Assembly (NCBI GenBank): GCA_004292855.1
Contig: RDXN01000047.1
Location: 1-64,000 of the forward strand
Source of the DNA: Cytophagales bacterium
Lineage (GTDB): Bacteria > Bacteroidota > Bacteroidia > Cytophagales > Spirosomataceae
Length of the DNA: 64,000 nt
Direction of reading: 5' to 3'
The notes under the pieces are model-generated. The model saw nothing but the letters and a program-made list of their open reading frames with translations. It made no database searches and was not told the DNA's origin. The position numbers and the translations under genes are program-made. Positions 16,117-37,259 of this stretch are shown here, piece by piece. Position 1 is the first letter of the stretch. Each line of letters opens with the position of its first letter.

Positions 16117-17388
16117 ATGAAGTCCTTCAACATCCCCGACTATTACCGCAGCACCGTTATCACGCCCCTGAAAGAGTTTCGGCGCAAACGCGACAAACTA
16201 AAGCGCGATTTCACGCCGACTCTGCTCGATTTTGGGCCGGTACGGTTCCACATCGCCCGTCACTTCGGGTTCTGCTACGGGGTCGAAAATGCCGTTGAGA
16301 TTGCCTACAAGGCCATTGCCGAGAATCCCGGCAAACGCATTTTCCTGTTGAGTGAAATGATCCACAACCCCGACGTCAACGCCGATTTACTCAGCCGGGG
16401 TGTGCGGTTTTTGATGGATACCGGAGGGCAGCAACTGATTCCGTTCAGCGAGCTAACGCCGGACGACGTGGTGATTATCCCGGCGTTCGGCACCACGCTC
16501 GAAACGTACGGGCAACTGTCGGCAATTGGATTAGACATTGAGAAGTACGACACCACTTGCCCCTTCGTGGAGAAGGTCTGGAACAAGGCCGCCCAGATTG
16601 GCCAGAAGAATTACACGGTGGTGGTTCACGGTAAGCCGAGCCACGAGGAAACCCGCGCGACGTTCTCACACAGCAAAGAGGCCGCGCCTACCGTGGTCGT
16701 GAAGAACATGGCCCAGACCGAACGGCTAGCTCGTTACATCACGGGCGAGGCCCCCGCCGAAGAGTTCTACACCGAATTTTCCGGGCAATATTCCGAGGGT
16801 TTCGATCCCACCCGCGACCTTAAGCGCATTGGCGTTGTCAACCAAACCACGATGCTCGCTTCTGACACCCAGGGCATTGCCGATTACTTAAAGCGGGTGA
16901 TGATGGATCATTTTGCACAGTCGGCAGAGCCGACTTTACAGCCTTTGCCGTTGGCTTCAGCCAACGGTGCCAATGGAGAGGAATATTTTGCCAACACCCG
17001 CGATACCCTCTGCTATGCCACCAACGACAATCAGGACGCCACCTACGCTCTGCTCCGTTACCCGGCCCATTTAGCCATTGTGGCCGGGGGCTACAACTCG
17101 TCCAACACCTCGCACATCGTTGACCTCTGCGCCGAGCGGTTACCCACTTATTTTATTGAGTCAGAGCAGAAATTGCTCTCGCGCGAGTTAATCCGGCATT
17201 TCGATTTGCACACCAAAGAAGAGATCGTTACCGAAGGCTACCTGCTCCCCAACGAACCTCTCACCATTCTGCTCACCTGCGGGGCCTCCTGCCCCGACGC
17301 CGTGGTTGAGGGCATCCTAACGCGCATTGTGAGCTTTTACCCCGGCGCAAAACCGATTGAGGAGGTAATGAAGGATTTCGAAGGATAG
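16117..17388 (+). CDS. ispH: 4-hydroxy-3-methylbut-2-enyl diphosphate reductase
   Basis: Last enzyme of the MEP isoprenoid pathway. The chosen start gives 423 residues, the long cyanobacterial/plant-type form and not the 310-residue E. coli type. The three iron-sulphur cysteines are Cys53 (GFCYGV), Cys148 (TTCPFV) and Cys299 (DTLCYATNDNQ). Other landmarks are HGKPSHEETRAT and the C-terminal LTCGASCPDAVV. Between about residues 267 and 288, just before Cys299, the coding sequence contains two short palindromes, suggesting an in-frame repeat insertion in a variable loop. Its product could feed the EboC prenyltransferase, but no direct link is shown. Confidence 0.93.
   Translation: MKSFNIPDYYRSTVITPLKEFRRKRDKLKRDFTPTLLDFGPVRFHIARHFGFCYGVENAVEIAYKAIAENPGKRIFLLSEMIHNPDVNADLLSRGVRFLMDTGGQQLIPFSELTPDDVVIIPAFGTTLETYGQLSAIGLDIEKYDTTCPFVEKVWNKAAQIGQKNYTVVVHGKPSHEETRATFSHSKEAAPTVVVKNMAQTERLARYITGEAPAEEFYTEFSGQYSEGFDPTRDLKRIGVVNQTTMLASDTQGIADYLKRVMMDHFAQSAEPTLQPLPLASANGANGEEYFANTRDTLCYATNDNQDATYALLRYPAHLAIVAGGYNSSNTSHIVDLCAERLPTYFIESEQKLLSRELIRHFDLHTKEEIVTEGYLLPNEPLTILLTCGASCPDAVVEGILTRIVSFYPGAKPIEEVMKDFEG
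16919..16967. repeat. Palindromic module inside the ispH coding sequence
   Basis: AGTCGGC-AGA-GCCGACT (16919-16935) runs into TTTACAGC (16935-16942) and is followed by CCGTTGGC-TTCA-GCCAACGG (16948-16967). The same TTTACAGC after a hairpin and the same GGCTTCAGCC word occur in the repeat at 37084-37259. It is read through in frame as part of ispH. Confidence 0.75.
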
Positions 17389-37083: not shown

Positions 37084-37259
37084 GTGTATTACGGTGCTGA
37101 AGCACCTTTACAGCTATTTCGCAGAGATGCACAGAGAAAATATAGAGATTCGCAGAGGTTTTTTGAGAAAACTAACTTCATTCATTTCTTCTCTGCGAAT
37201 CTCTATATTTCTCCGCGTATCTCTGCGAAATAGCTCAACATGAGGGCTTCAGCCCGAAT
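37084..37259. repeat. Composite spacer-filling inverted repeat between DUF4159 and moxR
   Basis: The outer part holds GGTGCTGAAGCACC (37093-37106) followed by TTTACAGC (37107-37114), and GGGCTTCAGCCC (37244-37255). Inside are arms of about 45 bases (37112-37157 and about 37191-37235) made of TTTCGCAGAGAT and AGAGATTCGCAGAG words. The element fills the entire gap. The TTTACAGC and GGCTTCAGCC words are shared with the insert in ispH. Confidence 0.88.

Follow-up and report, generated by a model that had tools for sequence, protein, structure and literature searches.

The ispH gene described here very probably carries, in the loop of IspH that precedes the third cluster cysteine, an inserted unit of a palindromic repeat that is dispersed through the genome in few copies. 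The unit consists of two hairpins held apart by a 12-nt spacer, and it would have entered the gene in frame. It was found in the window, the whole stretch of 64,000 nt of DNA that was analysed, which belongs to a 6.25-Mb genome made up of 108 contigs (G000).

The ispH gene and the loop of its protein

The product of the gene matched PF02401 with an E-value of 7.5e-60 and 202.9 bits (cut-off 24.5) and the equivalog NF009911 with 479.6 bits, over the cut-off of 440; its score for TIGR00216, 187.1 bits, was slightly below the cut-off of 187.85. Cys53, Cys148, and Cys299 lie in invariant contexts, and the cluster cysteines are present. The DTLCYAT stretch around Cys299 aligned with DDICYATTNRQ of the solved IspH structure 4h4c and, from this alignment and from knowledge of the family, we take this region to be that of the third iron-sulphur cluster cysteine. 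The repeat segment stops 43 nt 5' of the Cys299 codon (Table 1). The reading frame of ispH is unbroken, and strong purifying selection acts on the gene, with a pS of 0.665 and a pN of 0.088 in comparison with the Rudanella sequence L002. A nadA riboswitch at the start of the gene was considered and rejected, as the Rfam match was below threshold (18.7 bits, with 37.5 needed). The best named relative by IspH was Rudanella paleaurantiibacter, with 84% identity in the best segment, a value that one other record also reached, and the genome is therefore termed Rudanella-like. The IspH of L003, a record titled Flavobacterium sp. SUN052 whose organism name may be wrong, was 84% identical to that of the window in the best segment.

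Table 1. Coordinates of ispH and of the parts of its repeat unit in the window
Feature	Position	Strand	Basis
ispH (lytB), 4-hydroxy-3-methylbut-2-enyl diphosphate reductase, 423 aa	16117..17388	+	PF02401, NF009911
In-frame two-hairpin repeat unit, 49 nt, residues 268-284	16919..16967	+	Model R1; longer loop than in 82 of 82 relatives; no model match in the loci of 37 relatives
Hairpin 1, AGTCGGC-AGA-GCCGACT, 7 bp, 3-nt loop	16919..16935	+	Direct reading
Spacer TTACAGCCTTTG, 12 nt; consensus TTTCACCCATTG	16936..16947	+	Copy alignment
Hairpin 2, CCGTTGGCT-TC-AGCCAACGG, 9 bp, 2-nt loop	16948..16967	+	Pattern matches 15 places genome-wide
Codon TGC of Cys299 in DTLCYAT	17011..17013	+	Position read from sequence and loop alignment

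Between LK and FA.TRDTLC, the IspH of the window contained 31 residues. It was aligned with 82 relatives, namely 80 public sequences (the best 80 of 183 found) and two from same-genus genomes, which may be of the same species as public ones. The loop had 17 residues in 72 of these relatives, 18 in two, 19 in three, 22 in four, and 27 in one, so that the loop of the window was the longest in the whole comparison. The net gain was 14 residues (42 nt) relative to the common 17-residue loop and 9 residues (27 nt) relative to the Rudanella sequences L002, L083, and L084. The preliminary description, which had read the segment as a repeat module lying in frame in a variable loop and used as coding sequence, had predicted a gap of about 15-20 residues in some relatives, and such a gap is indeed present, with the 14 residues. 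That reading was supported, and the segment was not conserved among the IspH relatives. No match to the model of the repeat family was found in the ispH loci of the 37 relatives searched, the longest loops included, and the lengthened loops of L002, L006, and L017 gave none either. Owing to the divergence of the sister loops, the precise empty site cannot be reconstructed; the sequences compared contained no strain of the same species lacking the insert. Because the unit has 49 nt, which is not a multiple of three, and the net gain is 42 or 27 nt, some bases of the loop were probably lost on or after insertion.

A structure predicted by AlphaFold2 from 27 aligned proteins had a mean pLDDT of 79.6, with residues 270-286 below 50. 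The structure alignment excluded L014 and L053. Its best solved match was IspH (E 7.8e-16), with a TM-score of 0.49 by query length and an rmsd of 6.8, and for this reason only the low confidence of the loop was taken from the model. The repeat in IspH presumably forms a disordered loop; the insert may be tolerated as such on the surface of the protein, the peptide itself doing nothing.

Both stems of the ispH copy are perfect. In most other copies hairpin 1 reads AGTCCC-GCA-GGGACT, and the inner stem of the ispH copy differs from this yet still pairs; in the alignment of the copies, hairpin 1 of the ispH copy is also 2 nt longer than the usual one, as is the whole unit. These differences weigh against the insertion reading. 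The first two T and the last TTG of the spacer are common to the copies of alignment A2. As single-stranded DNA, the segment folded with -16.7 kcal/mol (z -4.63), a value as low as which was reached by none of 200 shuffled sequences. Two such hairpins side by side are by themselves only mildly unusual, not very rare, since dinucleotide shuffling gave at least one hairpin pair this strong in 20 of 200 windows, and codon permutation of ispH gave some such pair in 23 of 2000 genes.

The repeat family in the genome

The family was revealed by a search of 59 genomes with positions 16905-16985, which returned strong partial copies in the window's own genome. Its unit is composed of AGTCCC-GCA-GGGACT, a spacer, and CCGTTGGCT-nn-AGCCAACGG. 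The covariance model R1 was built from seven other copies, with the ispH copy left out. On the window it matched the ispH segment with 49.7 bits (E 1.4e-10), and the next unrelated place scored 8.4 bits, the sole other match above this value being the same hairpin on the opposite strand. On the whole genome, 13 whole-model matches with an E-value of 1.4e-8 or better were obtained, that is, ispH and 12 others (among them the seven used to build R1), besides weaker and half matches. At E 1, the model gave no match in a further 331 kb of this genome and none in three other same-genus genomes, one of them 71% complete, with 150 first-look candidates scored per genome. The pattern of hairpin 2 was found at 15 places in this genome and at none in the three same-genus genomes, and its reversed control was found nowhere. 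Together, the R1 matches and the hairpin-2 pattern mark about 19 distinct places.

Four inverted pairs, in which the first hairpins face inwards, account for eight of the 13 copies (contigs C2, C52, C53, and C70). Nine of the 15 stem pairs varied on both sides, and 99.0% of the cells paired, as high a value being seen in none of 500 shuffles; these statistics come from an alignment that was fitted to the model, which leans towards pairing. Such changes on both sides, unmatched by any shuffle, indicate that the hairpins have been kept more than their letters. With 13 copies and compensatory changes, the family is a dispersed palindromic repeat, REP-like in the broad sense. Visual inspection of the 13 aligned copies and of the flanks of the listed loci revealed neither GTAG nor CGTC as a constant foot, and CGTC occurs inside the stem of hairpin 2 in two of the 13. 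All three frames on the + strand of the consensus unit are open, as is one of the three on the opposite strand. In another genome (G034), two loci, L206 and L205, contain CCGTTGGCTnnAGCCAACGG-like hairpins set in arrays with different spacers, four of those in L206 being spaced 91 nt apart.

Besides ispH, two genes hold hairpin 2 in frame: a dipeptide-epimerase-like gene of the enolase superfamily (C32) and a DEDD-exonuclease-like gene (C36). Compared with 19 aligned relatives, the epimerase has 3-4 extra residues and a replaced stretch at the hairpin, where about 9 codons have given way to 13 and no simple addition has taken place. The exonuclease has 11 extra residues at the hairpin in comparison with 10 aligned relatives, a partial match (L297) having been left out before counting. 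The full model scored 29.5 bits at the epimerase copy and 25.4 bits at the exonuclease copy, both low because little beyond hairpin 2 is present. The insert is read as PLASANG in ispH and as PLALANG in the epimerase, and the exonuclease uses a different frame; this variety speaks against a specific peptide having been selected for. In the exonuclease locus (L233:1313-1960, - strand), the insert seems partly duplicated, with AAACGGCAAC occurring twice and the second occurrence followed by GGGTGGAAAACCC as in the spacer of the repeat.

Three reading frames end inside a copy, those of hydantoinase B, a PMT-like protein, and a transposase relic, and a fourth, permease-like by look only, ends directly beside a hairpin. 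Other mechanical open reading frames that overlap copies, of 143 aa (C52), 100 aa (C53), 101 aa (C2), and, opposite a 305-aa frame, 367 aa (C53), were not counted as coding insertions.

Mobilization and alternative explanations

On balance, the unit may well have moved as single-stranded hairpin DNA by means of an IS200-like TnpA-Y1 (RAYT-type) enzyme. Eight Y1_Tnp matches were found in the genome, and one of them (C70:91242-91403, - strand) lies with a copy on either side, at 91120 and 91569, a third copy being located at 91012. The transposase gene flanked in this way is broken into two frames. Its C-terminal piece of 84 residues, in a separate frame, matched Y1_Tnp with an E-value of 1.9e-8 and ends inside the repeat, and its N-terminal piece of 52 residues resembles the starts of other Y1 proteins by eye and had no family match in Pfam or NCBIfam. 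This broken IS200-type transposase is likely the former mobilizer; an enzyme of its kind would have spread the unit and later decayed. The link is weakened by the two frames of the relic and by the seven other Y1 matches in the genome. Around those seven loci and ten in sister genomes R1 gave weak matches only (best 13.7 bits), and a search of plasmids with the transposase piece found nothing. Hairpins were also seen at other Y1 loci of this genome: the transposase gene of L303 (C26) is bracketed by TCGTCCCCTACGGGACGA / CCGTCCCCTACGGGACGG at 1290-1307, 2077-2094, and 2143-2159, and L313 and L315 (C70 and C101) have near-identical hairpin sets on both sides.

Compared by eye, the Y motif of the relic, YIQRQEVHH, agrees with Y---Q--HH, the signature of TnpA-Y1 subclass 1.2; the two open pieces of the relic contained no HuH motif and hence not the complete core of that subclass. 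According to the available part of the 2018 survey (PMC6006769), subclass 1.2 occurs mostly in Cyanobacteria and Bacteroidetes, is related to the IS200 transposases without having IS properties, generally lacks IS200-type terminal structures, and does not appear among the REP-flanked subclasses. In two sister genomes, subclass-1.2-like genes with the motif YIKKQKEHH (L305 and L308) are bracketed by inverted two-hairpin copies of a related-looking but different unit, GGACT..CGTCC, spacer, CAACCCC-GTT-GGGGTTG. Two of the four two-hairpin folds at these loci are weak (z -1.44 and -1.14), and in the second of them, on the left of L305, the first hairpin is hardly formed. The CAACCCC hairpins had no match in 400 kb sampled from G001, which counts against reading them as cognate repeats. 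It can be proposed only tentatively, and with more doubt than confidence, that subclass 1.2 TnpA-Y1 enzymes of Bacteroidota have cognate two-hairpin repeats with a spacer of about 12-16 nt, which would flank their genes, spread singly or as inverted pairs, and sometimes enter genes as new protein loops.

Movement without a transposase, in which hairpins would have been copied during replication through template switching or in the manner of gene conversion, is an unlikely but still serious alternative. The concerted variation on both sides of the stems and the replacement rather than mere addition of codons in the epimerase gene would suit such copying, as would the fact that no target duplication was seen by eye at the copies; but larger target duplications are also lacking in IS200/IS605 as treated in the consulted part of PMC2817692, and the bracketing of the TnpA-Y1 relic by copies is the usual sign of an enzyme-linked repeat.

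It is improbable that the insert has been kept because hairpins in the mRNA (or DNA) regulate ispH, for example by slowing ribosomes or stabilizing the message. The segment does fold strongly as RNA, with -26.4 kcal/mol (z -3.47), none of 200 shuffles being as low, and its stems are without mismatch; however, similar folding was obtained for two copies located elsewhere (z -3.17 and -3.11), so that stability is a property of the element, and the ispH loci searched in relatives are devoid of model matches.

A common origin of the ispH segment and the block at 37084-37259, as proposed in the preliminary description, is more improbable still. That description had noted the same two words in the same order at both places, and this part stood: each has a hairpin followed by TTTACAGC and later by a tip of GGCTTCAGCC. 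In ispH, TTTACAGC lies at 16935-16942, its first T being the final base of the hairpin 1 stem, and GGCTTCAGCC (16953-16962) is the tip of the longer hairpin 2. The kinship drawn from these words was not supported, R1 scoring at most 7.3 bits in the block. The block is a long inverted repeat of the cgcagagatt type, and its relatives, found in this genome and in sisters and several with end hairpins of their own, make up another dispersed family; the clear source family of the ispH segment is, as judged by sequence comparison, located elsewhere in the genome. End hairpins whose tip resembles CTnnAG are present in other copies of the block, and in one of these, L140, a hairpin precedes TAAACAGTTATT, which loosely recalls TTTACAGCTATT and could hint at a remote link with the block family; however, neither strand of the four other copies of the block checked in this genome contained TTTACAGC. 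The exact words behaved no better: GAAGCNNCTTTACAGC occurred once in this genome and in 18 of 200 family genomes, with its reversed control in 11, GCNGANGCNNNCTTTACAGC had no exact match in this genome, and GCNNNCTTTACAGC was found, with the two strands added together, 3, 4, 4, and 2 times in the four genomes of the genus, in comparison with 4, 5, 6, and 7 for the control. A hairpin of at least 6 bp followed by TTTACAG was seen in 395 kb of this genome at the two window places only, among 43 occurrences of TTTACAG, which speaks for a shared origin; a hairpin of at least 6 bp preceded TTTACAGC at two of 18 places, which speaks against it. Counts like those of the controls, or places in the window only, indicate that TTTACAGC is not a signature of the family. 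The two places of the 18 were 37099 of the window and L116 (genome G175), where at about 1501 a 6-bp hairpin, AGCGGC/GCCGCT, stands directly before TTTACAGC.

Finally, chance palindromes in a fast-evolving loop grown by ordinary indels, which the variation of the loop from 17 to 27 residues in relatives and the frequency of equally strong tandem hairpins in shuffled windows might seem to allow, are strongly disfavoured and hardly credible, because the unit recurs in the genome, with the ispH segment matching other copies over its whole length and the hairpin-2 pattern missing from the sisters, and because the longer loops of relatives do not match the model.

Comparison with known palindromic repeats

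REPs inside genes and the palindromic elements of Rickettsia are established, as the available portion of PMC3733652 (BMC Genomics 2013) sets out. The intragenic REPs described there are palindromes tagged by GTAG/CGTC that occur as singles or inverted pairs, mostly between genes and in part within ORFs; some provide the stop codon of the flanking ORF, some are linked to RAYTs, and Bacteroidetes are one of the phyla from which CGTC repeats have been reported. The repeat of the window resembles them in its short palindromes, its inverted pairs, and its presence within some ORFs, but, in terms of that portion of the source, it differs in having no GTAG/CGTC foot outside the stem, in its two hairpins with a fixed spacer, and in being confined to about 19 places. 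With the Rickettsia elements (RPE-1, -4, and -6), as far as the partial account goes, it shares a palindrome in unrelated housekeeping genes that is read as protein, and the trait of an in-frame coding insertion missing from relatives was found in ispH, the epimerase, and the exonuclease. It is set apart from them, by description, in that it belongs to a different phylum, is low in copy number, and has a transposase relic lying between copies.

In REPtron/RAYT systems (TnpA-REP), in the parts of PMC2817692 and PMC6006769 available, a tyrosine transposase gene is bracketed by copies of the repeat, as a piece of such a gene is here, where four inverted pairs occur as well; unlike in those systems, only a broken gene is present, with a Y motif that fits subclass 1.2. 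TnpA-Y1 subclass 2.6 of Bacteroidetes is flanked by atypical secondary structures (PMC6006769, in part), and its non-GTAG structures with genomic copies in Bacteroidota are similar to the repeat of the window, but its Y motif is YIH[QN]NP whereas that of the relic conforms to Y---Q--HH. In the literature searched on REP, RPE, REPIN/RAYT, Rudanella, and Spirosoma repeats, partly judged by title, no report of this family was found. As far as these searches go, the family itself, its two-hairpin unit lacking a GTAG/CGTC foot, its occurrence within a gene of isoprenoid synthesis, and its possible tie to subclass 1.2 are new. The ispH insertion offers a clean, testable case of mobile palindromic DNA turned into protein sequence in a housekeeping gene for which a single match was found in the genome, and the epimerase and the exonuclease of this genome provide two parallels. 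In addition, it suggests what may be the cognate repeat of a TnpA subclass that, in the available part of the 2018 survey (PMC6006769), was not tied to REPs.
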